From Methylocystis sp. KS32 (lineage in GTDB: Bacteria; Pseudomonadota; Alphaproteobacteria; Rhizobiales; Beijerinckiaceae), in contig PHSQ01000005.1 of NCBI GenBank assembly GCA_002862095.1, positions 152,501-216,500 on the forward strand: 64,000 nucleotides of DNA, in the 5' to 3' direction. Position numbers and translations under genes: made by a program. Below the pieces are notes generated by a model. The model worked only from the letters and a program-made list of their open reading frames with translations, ran no database searches and was not told the origin of the DNA. Positions 3,893 to 40,176 of this stretch are shown here, in pieces (positions within the stretch are counted from its first letter, which is position 1; every line of letters starts with the position of its first letter).

Positions 3893-5467
3893 CTAGGCCT
3901 GCTGTCGCAATGCCGAAGTCTTTTGCCGCCGGCGATCAACTGAGGAGGGGATACGAAGACTGTCGCGGTATTTCGCGACAGTGCGGCGCGCGATGTCGAT
4001 ATCCGCCGCTTTCAAGCGCGCCACGATGGCGTCGTCGGAAAGGATGTCGTCGGGACTCTCCCTTTCGATCATTTGCTTGATTTTGAAGCGGACTGCCTCC
4101 GCGGAATGCGCGGCGGCTCCGCTCGTGGTGGCGATGGAGGCGGAGAAGAAATATTTGAGTTCGAAAATCCCTCGCGGCGTCATCATATATTTGTTGGACG
4201 TGACGCGCGAAACCGTCGATTCGTGCATCCCGATGGCGTCCGCGATCGTCCTCAAATTCAAGGGTCGCAGGTGCTCCACTCCCTTGGCCAGAAAAGCGTC
4301 CTGCAGGCGAACGATTTCCGAGGCGACTTTCAGGATCGTGCGTTGGCGCTGTTCGAGACTTTTCAGCAACCAATTGGCGTTGAGCATACAGGTGGAGATG
4401 AAGCTCTTATCGGCGTCGCCCTTCGCCGTGGCGCTTACGAGCGCCGCATAGGAGTGGTTGAGCAGCACGCGCGGCAAAGCGTCGGAATTGAGTTCGACAT
4501 GCCACGACCCGTCGCCCGCGGGCCGCACGATGACGTCGGCGACCACCGTTTGGATTGGCGCATCGCCGAAAACACGGCCGGGCTTGGGGTCGAGCCGCCG
4601 CAGCTCCATCGCCATGTCCGCGACATCCTCCTCGTCGACGCCGCACAGGCGCGCGAGCTGTGCAAAATCGCGCCTGGCGACCAGAGGAAGATTGGCGACG
4701 AATATTTGCATGGCGGGATCGAAGCGGTCGCGTTCCCGCAGTTGGATCGCCAAACACTCCGCGAGATCGCGCGCGCCTACACCGGAAGGATCGAAACCCT
4801 GGACGATCGATAGAACCGCCTCCACCTCTTCCGGCGACGCGCCCAATCGGCTCGCGATGTCACTGGCGGATTCTCGCAGATATCCATTTTCGTCGATGGC
4901 GTCGATAATCGCCTGTCCGACGAATCGTCGGCGCGCATCGGAGCAAGCCAGAGCGAGCTGCTTCTCGAGCGAATCGTGAAGGGTCGTTGCGGCGGCGATA
5001 TAGGCTTCGAGATTGGGGGCTTCGCCGTCCCCGTCCGCGCCGGTGGCGCCGTTCCAGGATGTAGCGGACAGACCAGCCCCTTCGGCGGCTGCGGCGGGCG
5101 CCGAAGGGGAAACCGCGGGCGCATCGGGTTCGAAGGCGTTGCCGACTTCCGTTCCGAGATCCGCGGAAAGATTGGTTGCGTCGATTGAGAGGGAGTCTTG
5201 CGCCCAATCGCCGGCGCGTGGTTCGTCGACATCGCCTTCGGGGGCTTCCCTGGTCTCGCCCTCATTCGGCGCGTTATGCTCGCCCTGAGCAAAGTCGGCT
5301 CCCTCGGCTTCAAGAAGCGGGTTTCGCTCCAGCTCGTCGTGCAGGAAGGCCGTAAGCTCTATATTGGAGAACTGCAGCAGCTTGATGGCCTGCAGCAGTT
5401 GCGGCGTCATCACCAGGGCTTGGCCCTGTCGCATCATCAGCTTGTTGGATATCGCCATATTGTTCAC
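3893..5467 (-). CDS. rpoN: RNA polymerase sigma-54 factor
   Basis: A 524-residue sigma-54. Region I is present at the N-terminus (QGQALVMTPQLLQAIKLLQF), followed by an acidic, variable region II. The core-binding domain and the DNA-binding end include the RpoN box ARRTVAKYRD at about residues 493-502. It directs transcription from -24/-12 promoters with AAA+ activators, classically for nitrogen metabolism. The start at 5467 includes MNNM before the conserved region; M4 is an alternative. Neighbours hpf and ptsN belong to the standard rpoN cluster. Confidence 0.96.
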   Translation of the reverse strand: MNNMAISNKLMMRQGQALVMTPQLLQAIKLLQFSNIELTAFLHDELERNPLLEAEGADFAQGEHNAPNEGETREAPEGDVDEPRAGDWAQDSLSIDATNLSADLGTEVGNAFEPDAPAVSPSAPAAAAEGAGLSATSWNGATGADGDGEAPNLEAYIAAATTLHDSLEKQLALACSDARRRFVGQAIIDAIDENGYLRESASDIASRLGASPEEVEAVLSIVQGFDPSGVGARDLAECLAIQLRERDRFDPAMQIFVANLPLVARRDFAQLARLCGVDEEDVADMAMELRRLDPKPGRVFGDAPIQTVVADVIVRPAGDGSWHVELNSDALPRVLLNHSYAALVSATAKGDADKSFISTCMLNANWLLKSLEQRQRTILKVASEIVRLQDAFLAKGVEHLRPLNLRTIADAIGMHESTVSRVTSNKYMMTPRGIFELKYFFSASIATTSGAAAHSAEAVRFKIKQMIERESPDDILSDDAIVARLKAADIDIARRTVAKYRDSLRIPSSVDRRRQKTSALRQQA

Positions 5468-5658
5468 TCACGCGACACAAAAGCGATACGGATTGGTATC
5501 GGCCTGTTTCTTGCTTATACCATGTCGCGGCCTTCGATGGAGGCTCAAATCCTCGGCGCCTCCGTCCCTAAATGTCTAAAGGTTAATCACTTCCGAAATT
5601 TTACCCCGCTTATGTCGGGTTTGAAGCCGCTTCGCGGAGGGTTCCGCCGCGCGCCAAA

Positions 5659-6717
5659 TTACATTCGGAAATCCTCGCCAAGGTAGATGCGGCGCACGTC
5701 CGGATTCGCGACGATTTCATCGGCGGTTCCTTCCGTCAGAACGTGGCCGTTGTAGATAATATAGGCGCGGTCGGTAAGTCCCAGCGTCTCGCGCACGCTG
5801 TGATCGGTGATGAGAACGCCGATGCCTCGCGACTTGAGGTGCCGCACCAAATCCTGAATGCCGCCGACGGCGATTGGATCGATGCCCGCGAAAGGCTCGT
5901 CGAGCAGCATGAAGGAGGGGTGTCCGGCCAGGGCGCGCGCAATCTCGCAACGGCGTCGCTCGCCGCCGGACAGCGCCACCGCGGGGGTTGTACGCAGCCG
6001 GGTCAGACGGAATTCGTCGAGCAGCCCCTCGAGTTCATCCTCGCGCCTATGTTTATCCGGTTGCGTGATCTCCAGCACGGCGCGGATATTGTCCTCCACT
6101 GAGAGGCCGCGAAACACGGAAGCCTCTTGAGGCAGATAGCCCACTCCGAGGCGCGCGCGCCGATACATGGGCAGGGGCGTAACGTCATAGCCATCGAGGG
6201 AAATAATGCCCTTGTCGGGCTTCACCAGACCTGTAATCATGTAGAAAACAGTCGTCTTGCCGGCGCCATTGGGGCCGAGCAGCCCGACCGCTTCGCCCCG
6301 GCGCACATGAAGGCTCACATCCTCCACCACCCGGCGCGATTTGTATGATTTGGCGAGGTTGTGGATCGCCAGGACGCCTGCCGAATCGTTCCGCCCGCCC
6401 TTGGCGGCGGATGGCCTGTAGGCCCCCCCGGAAAATTCGTCAGACGAGGCGTCGGGGGCGCCTAAAATTTCAGCATCCGAATTCTCCAAAGCGTCCTGGA
6501 GCCATTCCTCCTCTCTAATTTCGTCCTGTTTTCGGTTGGCCGAATCGCGCCTCAGGCCGGCGTCGAGCGCGCGAGACAGGATCCTGCGCGCGCCGCCGAG
6601 GCCGAGAGAAAAGTTGGGCAAGAAGCGCACGAAGGCAGGGTTCCAGGGCGAAGTCGCGAACGAAAGGATCAAGGTTTCACTTGGGCCATCGGCTCCTAAA
6701 AGCGTCGGCTCAAGCAT
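5659..6717 (-). CDS. lptB: LPS export ABC transporter ATP-binding protein LptB
   Basis: An ABC ATPase of 352 residues. A roughly 113-residue, poorly conserved N-terminal extension precedes the domain, as in many Hyphomicrobiales LptB. Walker A GPNGAGKT is at 148-155, the signature is LSGGERRR, Walker B FMLLDEPFAGID, and the H-loop ITDHS. With LptFG it powers lipopolysaccharide extraction from the inner membrane toward LptC-A-D. It sits directly upstream of rpoN, the usual place. The ATG at 6717 has no strong ribosome binding site, so the start may be further in. Confidence 0.92.
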   Translation of the reverse strand: MLEPTLLGADGPSETLILSFATSPWNPAFVRFLPNFSLGLGGARRILSRALDAGLRRDSANRKQDEIREEEWLQDALENSDAEILGAPDASSDEFSGGAYRPSAAKGGRNDSAGVLAIHNLAKSYKSRRVVEDVSLHVRRGEAVGLLGPNGAGKTTVFYMITGLVKPDKGIISLDGYDVTPLPMYRRARLGVGYLPQEASVFRGLSVEDNIRAVLEITQPDKHRREDELEGLLDEFRLTRLRTTPAVALSGGERRRCEIARALAGHPSFMLLDEPFAGIDPIAVGGIQDLVRHLKSRGIGVLITDHSVRETLGLTDRAYIIYNGHVLTEGTADEIVANPDVRRIYLGEDFRM

Positions 6718-6758
6718 GTACGTATATATGTTAAGCCCCCGCCCGAGGGCTACGGGCG

Positions 6759-7364
6759 TCAGGCCCAGGGCCGCGTGGCAGCCGATCGCTCTTCGAAATC
6801 CGCGATTTTGTCCGCCTTCCGGAGGGTTAGGCCGATGTCGTCCAAGCCATTAAGCAGGCAATGTTTCCGGAATGCGTCTATCTCGAACTTGATGACGCCT
6901 CCGTCGGGACCGCGAACTTCCTGGCGTTCGAGGTCGATTGTCAAGGTCGCGTTGGCGCCGCGCTTGGCGTCGTCCATCAGCTTGTCGAGCTCCGGCTGCG
7001 ACACCTTGATCGGCAGGATGCCGTTCTTGAAACAGTTGTTGTAGAAAATGTCGGCGAAGCTCGTGGAAATCACGCAGCGAACGCCATAATCGAGCAAGGC
7101 CCAGGGCGCGTGTTCGCGTGACGAACCGCAGCCAAAATTATCCCCCGCTACGAGGATGGAGGCGTTGCGATAGGCCGATTTGTTGAGCACGAAATCGGGA
7201 TTCTCCGAGCCGTCTTCAAGGTAGCGAAGCTCCGAGAACAGCCCCTTCCCGAGGCCCGTGCGGGCGATCGTTTTAAGATATTGCTTCGGGATGATCATGT
7301 CGGTGTCGATGTTCATGATCTCCATCGGCGCCGCGACGCCGGTCAGCGTGGTGAATTTTTGCAT
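6759..7364 (-). CDS. leuD: 3-isopropylmalate dehydratase small subunit
   Basis: A 201-residue LeuD. Recognisable parts are [47 protein letters not shown] and the [13 protein letters not shown] motif. With LeuC it isomerises 2-isopropylmalate to 3-isopropylmalate in leucine synthesis; the 4Fe-4S cluster is in LeuC. The frame stays open upstream to 7466, but the extra 34 residues are basic and unlike the family, so I chose ATG 7364 to match the normal length. It stands alone, without leuC or leuB. Confidence 0.94.
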
Positions 7365-7609
7365 TTTTAGCTTTCGCTTCGCATGGCGTCGGCTCAAATG
7401 CGTCATCGGGCGACGCATCCTCCGGAACGCCTGGTTCGATTGAACGCCCTGTAGCAAATCCTTCACTCTCGCGCAAAAGCGCGGCGCGTCTTCCCTGCCT
7501 TGGGCGTCAAGAGCGCCGCGACCGGAATAGCGGCGACGCGCTCAGCTTGACACTCATGGCGCGCAATGCGAGTCGCCACCCGCAAAAGAGTTAAGAACAG
7601 GGGAGCGGA

Positions 7610-8557
7610 ATGTCGGCAGCATTTATTTTTCCGGGGCAAGGGTCTCAGGCGGTCGGAATGGGCAGATCGCTCGCCGAGACATTTGCGCCTGCCCGCGCCG
7701 TGTTCGAGGAGGTGGACTCGGCGCTGGGTCAGCCCTTGAGCAAGCTGATGTTCGAGGGTCCCGAACAGGAGTTGACGCTAACCGCCAATGCTCAGCCCGC
7801 GCTGATGGCCGTATCCATGGCCGTTGTCCGCGTCCTGCAAGCCGAGGCGGGATTAGATCTTTCGACCCAGGCCAAGTTCGTCGCCGGCCACTCGCTCGGC
7901 GAATATTCCGCGCTTTGCGCCGCCGGTGCGTTAAGCCTCGCGGAGACCGCCCGTTTGCTGCGGCTCCGCGGTTCGGCGATGCAGGCCGCCGTGCCGGTAG
8001 GAGAGGGCGCGATGGCGGCTCTGCTTGGCGTCGAACTCGATCTGGCGACCGAAATCGCCGCCGCCGCCGCGAAAACCGTGGGCGCGGCGTGCGAGGTCGC
8101 CAATGACAATGGCGGCGGCCAGGTGGTTATTTCGGGCGCCAAGACGGCGGTGGAGGCGGCCATCGACATCGCCAAGGAACGTGGAATCAAGCGCGCCGTG
8201 CTCCTGCCGGTATCCGCGCCCTTCCATTGCGCGCTCATGCGGAGCGCCGCCGCCGCGATGAAATCGGCGCTCGCGGACGCCGCGATTACCGCCCCTTGCG
8301 CCCCCTTGATCGCCAATGTGACGGCGGCGCCGGTGACGGACCCCGAGACAATCCGTCGACTGCTGGTCGAACAAGTCACGGGTTCGGTGCGTTGGCGCGC
8401 GAGCGTCCTCTATATGGCCGAAGCCGGGGTCACGAAGTTTGTCGAGTGCGGCGCCGGCAAGGTGCTAGCCGGATTGCTCAAACGCATCGCGCCCGGAATT
8501 TCTGGGGTCAGCATTGGCGCCCCAGCGGATTTGGAAATCTTCCGCGCATTTTTGTGA
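7610..8557 (+). CDS. fabD: Malonyl-CoA:ACP transacylase
   Basis: A 315-residue FabD that transfers malonyl from CoA to acyl carrier protein at the start of fatty-acid elongation. It has the N-terminal FIFPGQGSQAVGMG, catalytic Ser95 in AGHSLGEYS and catalytic His206 in SAPFHCALM. AGGGGAG lies just before ATG 7610. It opens a fabD-fabG-acpP-fabF block on the + strand. Spacing to fabG is 81 bp, so co-transcription is likely. Confidence 0.96.
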   Translation: MSAAFIFPGQGSQAVGMGRSLAETFAPARAVFEEVDSALGQPLSKLMFEGPEQELTLTANAQPALMAVSMAVVRVLQAEAGLDLSTQAKFVAGHSLGEYSALCAAGALSLAETARLLRLRGSAMQAAVPVGEGAMAALLGVELDLATEIAAAAAKTVGAACEVANDNGGGQVVISGAKTAVEAAIDIAKERGIKRAVLLPVSAPFHCALMRSAAAAMKSALADAAITAPCAPLIANVTAAPVTDPETIRRLLVEQVTGSVRWRASVLYMAEAGVTKFVECGAGKVLAGLLKRIAPGISGVSIGAPADLEIFRAFL

Positions 8558-32404: not shown

Positions 32405-33199
32405 TTAGGTCCGCGCCATCTCGACGCCCGTCACCATCCCTTCCGAGAACCAGTTCACGAGAAAGCGGGCGATGCGTTCGGCGGCGGGGTCGTTCTGGTT
32501 CTGGAACGCGACCATCTGGCAAATGTCGCCGAAGGACCGGCCGGCTCGCGCCTCGTTGAGGGCGAGGAATTCGTCGGGGTCGAGACCCCGGTAGAGCGGA
32601 TCGAATTTGTCGCGCCAAACCGCGATCCGCTCCACGCCCTGCCGGGGCGGCGGCGGCCCGGTTTCTTCCTCGGCGGTGAGGGCGAGATAGGTCTCCAGCG
32701 TGCCGGCCGCGACGGTGAGCAGTTCGACGCTTGGGTGGAAGGCGAATTTCAGCCGGGGCCAGTCCGGCGGCGAAAATTCCGCCAGCGCCTCGATCGCCAG
32801 CGTCTCGGCGTCCCGCGCGTCGAAAGCGTCGGTCAGGGCGCGCTCGAACCGGGCCATGTCGATGGCGCGCGGGTTCGCGCGCCAGTCCTCGTGCCGCTGG
32901 AGAAACTCCGGCAGTCCCGAGGAATACCAGCGGGCGTTGCGATGCCGCGAGGGATTGGCGGCGATATATTCCTCGACCAGCGCCTCGAAAACGTCGTCGC
33001 CCTGCAGCGCGCGAAGCGCTGGATAGTCCTCGTCGAGATATTCCGTTAGGCGGATGCGGTAGGCGGCGACGTAAACCCCGAATTTCACCGGCCTGCCGGC
33101 CTCGCCCCCCGCCGCGACGAGATCGAGAACGGCGGCGTCCTCCTCGTCGCCCGCGAGTATCGCGGCCTGGAACCGGCTCTGAAGCTCCTTCAGATTCAC
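32405..33199 (-). CDS. bufC: BufC-like DUF2063 partner protein
   Basis: A 264-residue protein of the DUF2063 family, with LQSRFQAAILAGD at the start, YVAAYRIRLTEYLDEDYPAL, the EYIAANPSRHRNARWYSSGL motif and RIARFLVNWFSEG at the end. In bufferin and methanobactin systems this partner (BufC/MbnC) helps the MNIO enzyme bind its peptide. The GTG start at 33199 overlaps the bufB stop as GTGA, showing tight coupling. A longer in-frame extension to 33574 lies over bufB and was rejected. Confidence 0.9.
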   Translation of the reverse strand: MNLKELQSRFQAAILAGDEEDAAVLDLVAAGGEAGRPVKFGVYVAAYRIRLTEYLDEDYPALRALQGDDVFEALVEEYIAANPSRHRNARWYSSGLPEFLQRHEDWRANPRAIDMARFERALTDAFDARDAETLAIEALAEFSPPDWPRLKFAFHPSVELLTVAAGTLETYLALTAEEETGPPPPRQGVERIAVWRDKFDPLYRGLDPDEFLALNEARAGRSFGDICQMVAFQNQNDPAAERIARFLVNWFSEGMVTGVEMART

Positions 33200-34041
33200 G
33201 CGGCGCTCCGCGGCTCCCGCGTCGCCATCGCCGCGTCGATGTCGCGCATGCGCTGGAGTTCCGCGAGAAGCTGGTCGAATGGCGGAAAATTGTCGTCGCG
33301 CTCGATCATGGCCGAAACGTCGCCGAAGCGCCGCCGCGCCCTGCCATAGAGCGTCCAGACCTCTTCGCTCACCGGTTGGTCGTGGGTGTCGATGCGGTGG
33401 GTCTTGTTGTCGGTGTGCCCCGCCAGATGAAACTGCGCGACGCGCTCTTTCGGGATCATGTCGATGTAGCGGGCGGCGTCGAAGCCGTGGTTGAAGCCGG
33501 AAACCGCGATATTGTTGACGTCGAGAAGCAGGAGGCAGCCGGCGCGCGTCGCCATTTCTGTCACGAATTCCCATTCCTCCATTTCCGAGTCGCCGAAGCC
33601 GACATAGGTGGAGGCGTTCTCGACGACGAGCGGGCGGCCCAGGAAATCCTGCACGCGGCCGATACGGTCCACCACATGGTCAAGCGCTTCGCGCGTATAG
33701 GGGATCGGCAGCAAATCGTGCAGATTGATTCCATGCACGCCGGTCCAGGCGAGATGGTCAGACACCCAGGCCGGCTCGATGCGCCCGGCCAGCGCCTTCA
33801 ACGCCGCGAGATAGTCGAAGTCGAGCGGGTCGGTCGAGGCGAGCGACATCGAAACGCCGTGCATGACGATAGGATAATCGGCGCGCACGCGCTCCAGCAT
33901 CGCCAGCGGCCGGCCGCCGGGGATCATGTAATTTTCGGAAATAATCTCGAACCAGTCGACCGGCGGCCGGGTCGAGAGAATTTCCTCGTAATAGACGGGC
34001 CTTAGCCCCAGGCCATAGCCCAGGCGCGGAAGCGGCTCCAT
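33196..34041 (-). CDS. bufB: BufB-like MNIO (DUF692) peptide-modifying enzyme
   Basis: A 281-residue TIM-barrel protein of the DUF692/MbnB family of multinuclear non-haem iron oxidative enzymes. Visible landmarks are RLGYGLGLRPVYYEEIL, DWFEIISENYM, VMHGVSMSLAS, WVSDHLAWTG, VVENASTYVGF, LLLDVNNIAVSGFNHGFDA and the late HLAGHTDN and DTHDQPV. The His, Asp and Glu in these are the expected iron ligands. In characterised bufferins it converts cysteines to thiooxazole-type groups. ATG 34041 follows GGGAGGA; an upstream TTG is less likely. Confidence 0.93.
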   Translation of the reverse strand: MEPLPRLGYGLGLRPVYYEEILSTRPPVDWFEIISENYMIPGGRPLAMLERVRADYPIVMHGVSMSLASTDPLDFDYLAALKALAGRIEPAWVSDHLAWTGVHGINLHDLLPIPYTREALDHVVDRIGRVQDFLGRPLVVENASTYVGFGDSEMEEWEFVTEMATRAGCLLLLDVNNIAVSGFNHGFDAARYIDMIPKERVAQFHLAGHTDNKTHRIDTHDQPVSEEVWTLYGRARRRFGDVSAMIERDDNFPPFDQLLAELQRMRDIDAAMATREPRSAA

Positions 34042-34143
34042 TTCATTTCCTCCCGCGTTCGACAAAGGCTCCGTCGCCGCGCGAAGCCGACAATAGCAAA
34101 AGGCGGCCGCCGCGCCAGAGGCCCAGCGCGCCGCCCTCTGGCG

Positions 34144-34398
34144 TCAGTCCATCGTCTTGCCGCCATCGGCCTCGCAGGCTTTTTCGGAGTCCTTGAACAC
34201 CCAGCCTTGACCTTTGCAGGCGTTCATGCCCTTGCAGGCGTTCTTCGGCGTCATGCAATCGGTCTTGCCCTTGCAGCTATTGACGCCGAGGCAGTGCACC
34301 TTGCCCGTCTCGGCGGCCGCGGGCGCGACCGCGCCGGCGATGGCGAGCGAGACGGCGGCGATGGCGAGAGCGGTTCCGGATCGTGATTTGTTCTTCAT
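34144..34398 (-). CDS. bufA2: BufA2-like bufferin precursor peptide
   Basis: An 84-residue secreted precursor. The signal peptide (about 1-29, ending VAPAAA) precedes a short mature part with six cysteines (36, 42, 48, 55, 61, 75) in NSCKG, NACKGMNACKGQGW repeats. This NACKG pattern is that of BufA2-type metallophores, whose cysteines are modified by BufB/BufC and which bind copper in the periplasm. It lies 102 bp upstream of bufB on the same strand. The peptide retains its signal peptide, as known bufferins do. Confidence 0.88.
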   Translation of the reverse strand: MKNKSRSGTALAIAAVSLAIAGAVAPAAAETGKVHCLGVNSCKGKTDCMTPKNACKGMNACKGQGWVFKDSEKACEADGGKTMD

Positions 34399-34462
34399 GC
34401 GACTCGTTCCAGGGTTATGGTTTCTTCGCCGGATCGCGGCGAAACTTGCCTGGCGCCGCCGC

Positions 34463-34681
34463 TTACTTGGGCTCGCCGGCGGGAGGGGCGCCAGCGCCGG
34501 CGGGGGCCGAGTCCTTGTTCATCTTGGCGGAGCAGGTGCTCTTGGCGCTGCATTTATGCTTTTCGGCCTTGTGATGGCCGTGGTGCTTGTGATGCTTGGC
34601 AGCCGCCGGGGTCGCGCCGGCGAGCGCCAGTCCCATCGCCGCGACAGCCACCGTCGCTCCGGAAAGAATCTTCGCTTTCAT
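34463..34681 (-). CDS. Secreted His-rich, two-cysteine peptide
   Basis: A 72-residue protein with a signal peptide (about 1-27, MKAKILSGATVAVAAMGLAL) and a mature part that begins KHHKHHGHHKAEKHKCSAK. It has seven histidines in about 13 residues, then two cysteines spaced CSAKSTC, then a proline/alanine tail. It is likely a metal-binding periplasmic peptide. It is encoded first in the run before bufA2, 64 bp away, so it may be a second precursor or a copper/nickel buffer. AGGA lies 8 bases before ATG 34681. No family recognised. Confidence 0.75.
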   Translation of the reverse strand: MKAKILSGATVAVAAMGLALAGATPAAAKHHKHHGHHKAEKHKCSAKSTCSAKMNKDSAPAGAGAPPAGEPK

Positions 34682-34848
34682 GAGAATCATCCTATTTTCG
34701 CCGAGCCTCGCCAATCGAGGCGGTTAACTGAACGACGCTTGCCCGCGCGGTGTCAAGTGGCGGCCGGGAAAGCCTCAGGGCGCCGTCCCGCGCCGCGTTT
34801 TACCGTCCGCCGAATGGTCCCTCGCGAAACGCGATTGGAGAACCCGCC

Positions 34849-36024
34849 TTGCTGGAAGTGTTTTTGGCTTTTCTTCGCCTCGGCCTCACGAGCTTCGGGG
34901 GGCCGGTGGCGCATATTGGCTATTTCAGGTCCGAATTTGTCGGGCGGCGCCAATGGGTGGAGGAGGCGGCTTTCGCCGATTTCGTGGCGCTGTGCCAGTT
35001 TCTGCCGGGGCCGGCCAGCAGTCAGCTCGGCATCATCATCGGCATGTCGCGCGCGGGAATCCCCGGCGGGCTCGCGGCCTGGCTCGGCTTCACCGCGCCT
35101 TCCGCGATCGCGCTGGCGGCTTTCGCCTACGCCGTGCTGGCGATTGGCGACCTGTCCCATGTCGCCTGGCTGCACGGGCTCAAGATCGTCGCGGCGGCGG
35201 TCGTGGCCCAGGCGGTCTGGAACATGGCCCGCAATCTATGTCCAGACCGCGAGCGCGCGAGCGTCGCCGTCGCCGCCGCCCTCGTCTGTCTCGCGGCGCC
35301 TTCCTCGCTGGGGCAACTCGCCGCCATCGCGCTTGGCGCGGCGGCGGGGTGGTTTTCGCCGCAAGGCGCGGCCGCCGTCGAGGCGGGGGCCGCGTTGACG
35401 CTTCCGGTCAACCGCGCGATGGGGTTGATTTCGCTCGCCTTGTTCGCCGCGTTGCTCGCGGGTCTGCCGCTGCTCGCCGAAGCCTTCCCCAACCACGCCC
35501 TGCAATTATTCAGCGCTTTCTACCACGCCGGCTCGCTGGTTTTCGGCGGCGGGCATGTGGTGCTGCCGCTGCTGCGAGAGGCGGTCGCGCCGCCGGGCTG
35601 GATCGGCGACGACGCCTTTCTCGCCGGCTATGGCGCGGCGCAGGCTGTTCCCGGCCCGCTGTTCGCCTTCGCCGCCTTTCTCGGCGCGGCGATGAAGCCC
35701 GCGCCCAGCGGTTGGCTCGGCGCGCTGCTCTGTCTCGTCGCGATCTATCTGCCCTCGTTCCTGCTGCTGTTCGGCGCGCTGCCGTTCTGGAGCGCATGGC
35801 GCCGCATGGCGTGGGCGCGGTCGATCCTGCGCGGGATCAACGCGGCGGTGGTCGGCGTTCTGCTGGCCGCGCTCTACGATCCGGTGTGGACCGCGGCGAT
35901 TTTCTCGCGCGCGGATTTCTCGCTCGCGGCGCTGGCTTTCCTGATGTTGCAATTCTGGCGGGTTCCGCCCTGGATCGTCGTCGTCCTCGGCGCTTTCGCC
36001 GCCAGCGGAATAGCGACGATCTGA
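34849..36024 (+). CDS. chrA: Chromate transporter (CHR family)
   Basis: A 391-residue membrane protein with two homologous CHR halves: RLGLTSFGGPVAHIGYF in the first and AGSLVFGGGHVVLPLLREAV in the second. PGP motifs (FLPGPASSQLG; AVPGPLFAFAAFLG) are present in each. It has about 10-12 hydrophobic segments. The family exports chromate, although in many organisms the substrate is untested. I chose TTG 34849 with GGAG 8 bases upstream; a GTG at 34750 gives a non-family N-terminus. It is divergent from the bufferin operon. Confidence 0.88.
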   Translation: MLEVFLAFLRLGLTSFGGPVAHIGYFRSEFVGRRQWVEEAAFADFVALCQFLPGPASSQLGIIIGMSRAGIPGGLAAWLGFTAPSAIALAAFAYAVLAIGDLSHVAWLHGLKIVAAAVVAQAVWNMARNLCPDRERASVAVAAALVCLAAPSSLGQLAAIALGAAAGWFSPQGAAAVEAGAALTLPVNRAMGLISLALFAALLAGLPLLAEAFPNHALQLFSAFYHAGSLVFGGGHVVLPLLREAVAPPGWIGDDAFLAGYGAAQAVPGPLFAFAAFLGAAMKPAPSGWLGALLCLVAIYLPSFLLLFGALPFWSAWRRMAWARSILRGINAAVVGVLLAALYDPVWTAAIFSRADFSLAALAFLMLQFWRVPPWIVVVLGAFAASGIATI

Positions 36025-39828: not shown

Positions 39829-40176
39829 ATGCGTAAAGTTTCAATCACCCCGGCGGCATTGGGATGTCTCCTGGCCGTCTCGCTTCTCGCGGCGCCGGCG
39901 CTGGCGAAAACGCACCATTATCGCCATCATAACCCTGCCGAGGCGACCGTGGCCGAGGGCCGGCGTCCCCTCGTGGTCGAACGCCGCAGCTTCCTCGATC
40001 CCGGACCCGTGGTCCCGGTCGGAACCTATACGCGCTACGTCTCCGTCCCGGCCTATCAATGGGGCGATCCGGTCTCGACCTACCATCGCAGCTGGTTCAT
40101 GGACGAGAATCTGCACCAAGCCTTCGACCCGCAACCGCAATCGCCGCTGGTCCTGCCGCTGCAATTCTGGCCATAA
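39829..40176 (+). CDS. Small secreted protein, unknown function
   Basis: A 115-residue protein with a signal peptide (about 1-26, ending AAPALA). The mature part begins KTHHYRHHNPAEA, is rich in His, Tyr, Pro and Arg, and ends in PLVLPLQFWP. It has no cysteines. The His pairs could bind metal weakly. GAAGGGAG precedes the ATG. No family recognised; small Rhizobiales-type secreted proteins of this look are common and uncharacterised. Confidence 0.65.
   Translation: MRKVSITPAALGCLLAVSLLAAPALAKTHHYRHHNPAEATVAEGRRPLVVERRSFLDPGPVVPVGTYTRYVSVPAYQWGDPVSTYHRSWFMDENLHQAFDPQPQSPLVLPLQFWP

Follow-up and report, generated by a model that had tools for sequence, protein, structure and literature searches.

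A 64,000-nucleotide stretch of contig PHSQ01000005.1 from Methylocystis sp. KS32 (the window) carries, at positions 32405-34681, four minus-strand genes in the order gene0-bufA2-bufB-bufC. They very probably constitute a Methylocystis variant of a known bufferin (captophorin) system, in which the canonical precursor BufA2 is accompanied by a precursor-like peptide, gene0; cysteine modification and a role in copper handling would be shared with characterised relatives. Directly established are the gene content, the family membership of the products, their conservation and linkage, and a bias in RNA folding. The 5-thiooxazole modification and the copper role of bufferins are described in excerpts of PMC13097082, PMC12452194 and PMC12538549, and it is from such excerpts that the biology in these papers is cited below; the passage of PMC12811070 contains the word 'buffering' and does not mention bufferins.

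What identifies the core of the operon as a bufferin cluster? The precursor BufA2 (34398-34144, minus strand, 84 amino acids) has six cysteines, a NACKG motif and an apparent Sec signal peptide, clear by eye, and it matches the NCBIfam model NF050166 with 90.7 bits (cut-off 60). The maturase BufB (34041-33196, minus strand), an MNIO (DUF692) enzyme of 281 amino acids when read from the ATG at 34041 (the frame can also be read from a TTG at 34065), scores 376.1 bits with NCBIfam NF050167 (cut-off 310) and 362.7 bits with Pfam PF05114 (cut-off 25). Its partner BufC (33199-32405, minus strand, 264 amino acids) matches Pfam PF09836 (DUF2063) with 69.5 bits (cut-off 27.2), and its GTG start at 33199 lies inside a GTGA at the bufB stop, so that the two genes overlap; the BufC query used in the family and structure-sequence searches began at 33202 and was one codon longer. 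We assign the operon to the bufferins because BufA2 and BufB exceed the cut-offs of their models, BufC is a DUF2063 protein and the order is bufA-bufB-bufC. Six conserved cysteines, a DUF2063 partner and this gene order, marks of the BufA2 (Buf2) type, are present, and neither gene0 nor BufA2 matches the Buf1 precursor family DUF2282 at E<=0.1 in Pfam. Judged by curated models, DUF2063 partner and gene order, the core appears to be an ordinary and well-supported member of a known bufferin kind. The preliminary description, which had proposed a bufferin-type operon of a six-cysteine NACKG precursor with a signal peptide, followed by a DUF692/MNIO enzyme and a DUF2063 partner coupled by GTGA, is borne out in these respects; the end that it gave for the interval, 34681, is the ATG of gene0, a fourth gene that it left undescribed.

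An alignment of BufB with the MNIO structure 3BWW covers the segments HG, SDH, EN, LDVNN, NHG, AGH, DTH and ERD, which we take to be the carriers of the metal ligands. Where 3BWW has ERDF, the window enzyme has ERDD, and by our own reading its second Asp would be the site at which Phe has given way to Asp in Cys-Lys maturases, a replacement described at this kind of site in PMC13097082. ERDD is found in 80 of 82 aligned enzymes (the exceptions are L136, with ERDG, and the Buf1-type L055). Among the 39 Methylocystis genomes, BufB-like matches at E<=1e-20 occur in 33 and a window-type BufB in 32; the other 31 window-type enzymes are 73.6-85.5% identical to that of the window, and all 32 keep ERDD. 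By sequence, BufC matched no solved structure at E<=0.01. Its predicted model, made from a 10-row alignment with a mean pLDDT of 78.9, best matches 8hci_A of the TglHI complex (268 residues; TM 0.57, rmsd 8.2, E 2.8e-06), which we take as the partner TglI, since another chain of that complex, 8hci_D with 304 residues, is its DUF692 protein. The MbnC chain 7tcr_C reached only E 0.9, and 3DEE, the comparison for an RRE-type domain, was absent among the 50 structure matches listed for the whole BufC model, in which such a domain was scored only as part of the whole.

The first gene of the operon, gene0 (34681-34463, minus strand), starts at the ATG at 34681 and encodes 72 amino acids. It begins with what looks by eye like a Sec-type signal peptide, followed by a His-rich mature part with the motif KCSAKSTCSAK (C-x5-C) and an Ala/Pro/Lys tail; seven His are present. 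Its best NCBIfam match is BufA2 with 14.3 bits, below the cut-off of 60, and it has no Pfam match at E<=0.1; of three relatives, two scored 24.0 and 15.0 bits with NF050166, the third had no BufA2 match, and none exceeded any NCBIfam cut-off. A profile built from 13 rows and run on the 39 Methylocystis genomes recovered gene0 in 15 of them with 60.4-108.2 bits, all other matches being at or below 39.9 bits; those of the latter that adjoin bufB proved on reading to be precursors. In all 15 genomes gene0 and a window-type bufB match share a strand, gene0 lying 410-776 nucleotides upstream. Across the 13 rows M1, G8, A14, A23, P25, A26, A28, K41, C44 and C50 are invariant, the tail is of low complexity and variable length, and the total number of His ranges from 2 to 7 across the 15 members. 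Nonsynonymous and synonymous divergence (dN/dS) was computed for the two pairs that passed an identity filter among 12 sequences, three further sequences being left out, and amounted to 0.024/0.157 for G177-G151 and 0.271/0.649 for G000-G300. The match in G215 holds one TAA, and its frame as read stops after 56-58 amino acids.

Beyond the genus, the family-wide search with the single gene0 sequence matched 41 of 298 genomes at E<=0.01, most of the weak matches in other genera being uninspected; where the locus of a Methylosinus match was read, it was a precursor adjoining bufB. A tblastn scan of named genomes found no gene0 relative. At E<=1e-4 the profile matched 4 of 397 sampled genomes of the order, two of them within Methylocystis and the others a BufA2-type peptide (G635) and a His-rich protein lacking the motif (G566), and in this sample of 397 we recognised no gene0 in any other genus. 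Within the genomes searched, gene0 was recognised in Methylocystis alone.

The maturase is conserved across the genus and the main precursor is not. A canonical six-cysteine BufA2 is encoded at only 4 of the 32 window-type loci (G000, G089, G300 and G215), all with gene0, and the remaining 28 (L047, L065 and L143-L168) have, upstream of bufB, His/Cys-rich peptides of the CHHK type with 5-9 Cys and 6-13 His, 11 of these loci with gene0 and 17 without; in some, such as G282 and G298, two such peptides stand in tandem. Related peptides, with CNMEKG[QH]C or CTMEKGHC, are encoded at nine Methylosinus loci. When three peptides of the Methylocystis type and one of the Methylosinus type were compared with NCBIfam, none exceeded a cut-off; with NF050166 two of the four had no match and the others reached 17.6 and 18.0 bits. 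Profiles of the His-type and BufA2 precursors match with E 6.7e-15 when signal peptides are included and with a probability of 15% when they are not, the aligned stretch being CGGKTACMTK versus CKGKTDCMTP. The claim of the preliminary description that the peptide and its genomic company are lineage-specific is only partly right. Within the sequences searched it stands for BufA2 with CMTPKN (at 4 of 32 window-type loci) and for gene0 (in 15 of 39 Methylocystis genomes), but falls for the canonical BufA2 type, which precedes bufB in alpha-, beta- and gammaproteobacteria, as judged from the 44 of 80 bufB loci at which precursors were read. One further precursor-like match, at 5599-5811 of locus L054 (G215), is possibly a stand-alone precursor; the 9.5-kb locus gave no tblastn hit for bufB or bufC.

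In a BufB tree of 81 rows, 75 of them different since some loci repeat genomes of the genus set (L134 was left out as short, and L081 and L089 are labelled BufA2 by default), the four loci with both gene0 and BufA2 form one clade (100/85) that is sister to the Methylocystis clades with His-type precursors; the Methylosinus clade lies outside these and the canonical-BufA2 enzymes further out. The absence of gene0 is confined to one clade, which fits a single loss. The enzymes of the window clade sit between two His-type groups, and this clade may either have kept its canonical BufA2 or have regained it. Our tentative reconstruction, which we would hold with less than even confidence, is that a Cys-Lys maturase lineage kept ERDD in Methylocystis and Methylosinus as its main substrate changed from the canonical six-cysteine CKG form into a His/Cys-rich one with CHHK repeats, that a two-unit companion precursor was added in Methylocystis as the first gene, and that the window clade keeps the canonical bufferin beside this companion. 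If so, one maturase lineage would modify Cys in very different contexts, and mixed thiooxazole/imidazole copper ligands, of which we found no description, would result.

Just behind the precursor gene, the transcript is predicted to fold stably at most of the loci compared. In the window, bufA2 and bufB are separated by 102 nucleotides (34042-34143, minus strand), the initial 60 of which are more stable than shuffles (z -2.2) and have a putative role considered below. When the 60 nucleotides 3' of the precursor stop were compared with dinucleotide shuffles in the genus, the mean z was -2.43 (standard deviation 0.76) at 31 of 32 loci, G215 being left out. In 29 further loci from other Pseudomonadota, with a few Methylosinus or Methylocystis paralogues, it was -3.33 (standard deviation 1.75); this set comprises recognised precursors, including one with 11 Cys (L083), and L066, L068 and L069 from Methylosinus or Methylocystis. 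Folds inside bufB, taken for comparison, gave z 0.14 in the 29-locus set and -1.0 to 1.0 in the genus loci. The spacer sequences differ between clades and the position of the fold is kept, in a comparison that set the end of the precursor wrongly for L147, L163, L164 and L167. The words hairpin and stem-loop are absent from the main text of PMC12452194, PMC13097082 and PMC12538549.

A number of points weigh against this interpretation of the operon. Expression, cysteine modification and copper function would all be carried over from characterised relatives only. At some loci the fold bias is slight (z -0.7 in G300, -0.3 in L072 and -0.5 in L095). The spacer behind gene0 is likewise stable in 6 of the 9 loci with a valid measurement (z -2.0 to -3.0; L144, L145 and L159 are excluded because a spurious frame was taken for gene0), which means that such stem-loops are not confined to the junction of precursor and enzyme, and the bias could be general to gene ends; in the window (z -0.3), G089 (1.0) and G300 (0.5) the spacer behind gene0 showed no such stability. 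With signal peptides included, the gene0 profile matches the BufA2 profile with E 9.6e-11 and the His-type precursor profile with E 4.4e-13, but with signal peptides removed the matches fall to probabilities of 6.1% and 6.6% (E 0.006), which leaves common descent of gene0 and the precursor cores unsupported. By eye, 11 of the 15 gene0 peptides, though not that of the window, have a Pro directly behind the second Cys, and a different maturase, FonBC, was intolerant to Pro at all its tested sites (PMC13097082).

What kind of peptide, then, is gene0? Its sequence suggests a short secreted peptide whose likeness to BufA2 precursors lies chiefly in the signal peptide and in the spacing of its Cys, and it is most likely one of two things, an unmodified metal-binding companion with His and Cys ligands or a minor second substrate of BufB-BufC. 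We consider it quite possible, at nearly even chance, that gene0 is an unmodified periplasmic peptide that binds or hands over copper through its His cluster and C-x5-C motif and shares with the precursors only a type of signal peptide and an operon. The His-rich mature part of the window peptide, the prevalence of Cys-Pro at the second Cys and the weak likeness of its core to precursors are in keeping with this, as is the possibility of unmodified precursors raised in PMC12452194; however, the number of His varies among the 15 members, whereas the two Cys are invariant in the aligned rows, and the signal peptide is closely similar to that of BufA2 precursors. A signal-peptide signature and C-x5-C spacing in common with BufA2, together with linkage to bufBC at 15 of 15 loci and the tandem precursors known from other bufferin clusters (PMC12452194), would agree with gene0 being a mini-bufferin, an additional substrate of two units for the same BufB and BufC. 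We regard this as possible but somewhat doubtful, given the Cys-Pro in most members and the absence of any NCBIfam score above a cut-off among the four gene0 peptides scanned. Preliminary results in PMC12452194 indicate that the Buf1 signal peptide belongs to the recognition sequence of BufB-BufC. A chance open frame or decaying duplicate, which the low-complexity, variable tail and the absence of gene0 upstream of bufB at 17 other window-type loci might suggest, is very improbable in view of an open frame in 15 of 39 genomes, the invariance of K41, C44 and C50 and dN below dS in both pairs computed.

Methanotrophs have a high need of copper for methane oxidation, yet must survive copper excess. 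The window genome has two PF02461 (pMMO/AMO-type) loci, so copper handling is to be expected of it. It is unlikely that the product of the operon deals with some other metal or stress instead of copper, even though a chromate transporter gene is divergently adjacent (chrA, 34849-36024, plus strand; TIGR00937, 320.4 bits, cut-off 171.7) and gold-induced and MerC-linked bufferins are described in PMC12452194; chrA had no match in 22 loci searched, and this neighbour is not conserved there. Methanobactin was considered for this genome and rejected, the MbnB model scoring 80.1 bits against a cut-off of 325 in an assembly that is 92.8% complete. MbnB exceeds its cut-off in 21 of the 39 Methylocystis genomes, in 5 of 15 with gene0 versus 15 of 17 window-type genomes without it (Fisher p 0.003). 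This contrast gives no ground for inferring a functional link because the absence of gene0 is a single clade of the BufB tree, and phylogeny confounds the comparison.

Two other bufferin operons are present in the same genome. The first, on contig C6 (L055, about 4400-8000), has a sigma-factor-like gene, bufA2, a four-cysteine Buf1-like gene, bufB, a bufC-like gene and a DoxX-like gene, several of them named by eye; its BufA2 scores 97.6 bits, its BufB is 42% identical to that of the window, and both precursors, with six and four Cys, stand before one bufB. The second, on contig C7 (L056, 3715-5348), comprises a five-cysteine bufA2-like gene, bufB and bufC; this bufB encodes 171 amino acids in frame and lacks the region corresponding to residues 97-220, and its bufC is open throughout.

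Downstream of the window operon lies a gene for a KefB/C-like antiporter (kef, 32126-30276, minus strand), whose best models are below their cut-offs. Neither chrA nor kef gave a tblastn match at E<=1e-3 in the 22 loci, which are of 5-12 kb each and include two from the window genome. The four genes of the operon are probably co-transcribed. A possible promoter lies upstream of gene0 at 34727-34756 (minus strand; TTGACA, 18 nucleotides, TTCAGT), and the same hexamers occur upstream of gene0 in the relative G089; a generic promoter scan did not report this site and gave a single promoter-like site, within bufB on the opposite strand. Two terminator-like sites were found 3' of bufC, fewer than in shuffles. 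The motif CTGCTAGCGA is present with at most one mismatch in 6 of 11 upstream regions tested, against a shuffled maximum of 3-4, and is not seen in the window. At five His-type loci (L047, L143, L152, L162 and L167) CTGCTAGC stands upstream of gene0, and GCTAGCGAAA occurs upstream of gene0 in L141 of the BufA2 clade; no upstream sequence of the CTGCTAGC/GCTAGCGAAA type was seen in the window. Unlinked to the operon, the window also encodes a predicted secreted His-rich protein (39829-40176, plus strand; AKTHHYRHH).

Among known systems, the operon is closest to Buf2 (Buf_6/12Cys, BufA2, NF050166), with which it shares six Cys, a signal-peptide-like start, CKG motifs, the bufABC order, BufB and a DUF2063 partner. 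It differs in the CMTPKN of its BufA2, where other BufA2 rows mostly have CKTA, in the extra upstream gene0 and in having no adjacent DoxX gene, since its neighbours are chrA and kef. Buf1 (DUF2282) bufferins likewise combine an MNIO enzyme with a DUF2063 partner, and a Buf1-like peptide is encoded on C6 of the same genome, but the window operon has a six-cysteine precursor and no adjacent sigma-factor gene. The captophorins fontiphorin, oxazolin and gonophorin (PMC13097082) also have an MNIO enzyme, a DUF2063 partner (PME1) and a Cys-rich precursor; theirs are Lys-Cys EGKCG repeats, whereas the window BufB carries ERDD and is read by us as a probable Cys-Lys type. Methanobactin (MbnABC) has in common an enzyme of the MNIO family, copper and a methanotrophic producer, though no MbnB exceeds the cut-off in the window genome. 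The CxxxxC precursor family of PMC12452194 has C-x4-C, unlike the C-x5-C of the window gene0. Among the open-access papers listed as matches, none treats Methylocystis bufferins or gene0; Table S2 of PMC12452194, on small candidate precursors, may include these peptides. Within the searches made, the genus-restricted gene0 and the contrast of a conserved maturase with a changed precursor are apparently undescribed.

If the operon works as its characterised relatives do, BufB and BufC would act in the cytoplasm, oxidising certain cysteines of BufA2 to thiooxazoles; the signal peptide would then direct BufA2 to the periplasm, and the product would sequester excess copper. The stem-loop after bufA2 may hold the level of precursor mRNA above that of the enzyme mRNA, and gene0, the first gene of the operon, may act in one of the ways weighed above. 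Related maturases with very different natural precursors within one genus offer a test of what a thiooxazole-forming MNIO enzyme accepts, and gene0 bears on whether all the tandem precursors of bufferin operons are modified, a question raised in PMC12452194.

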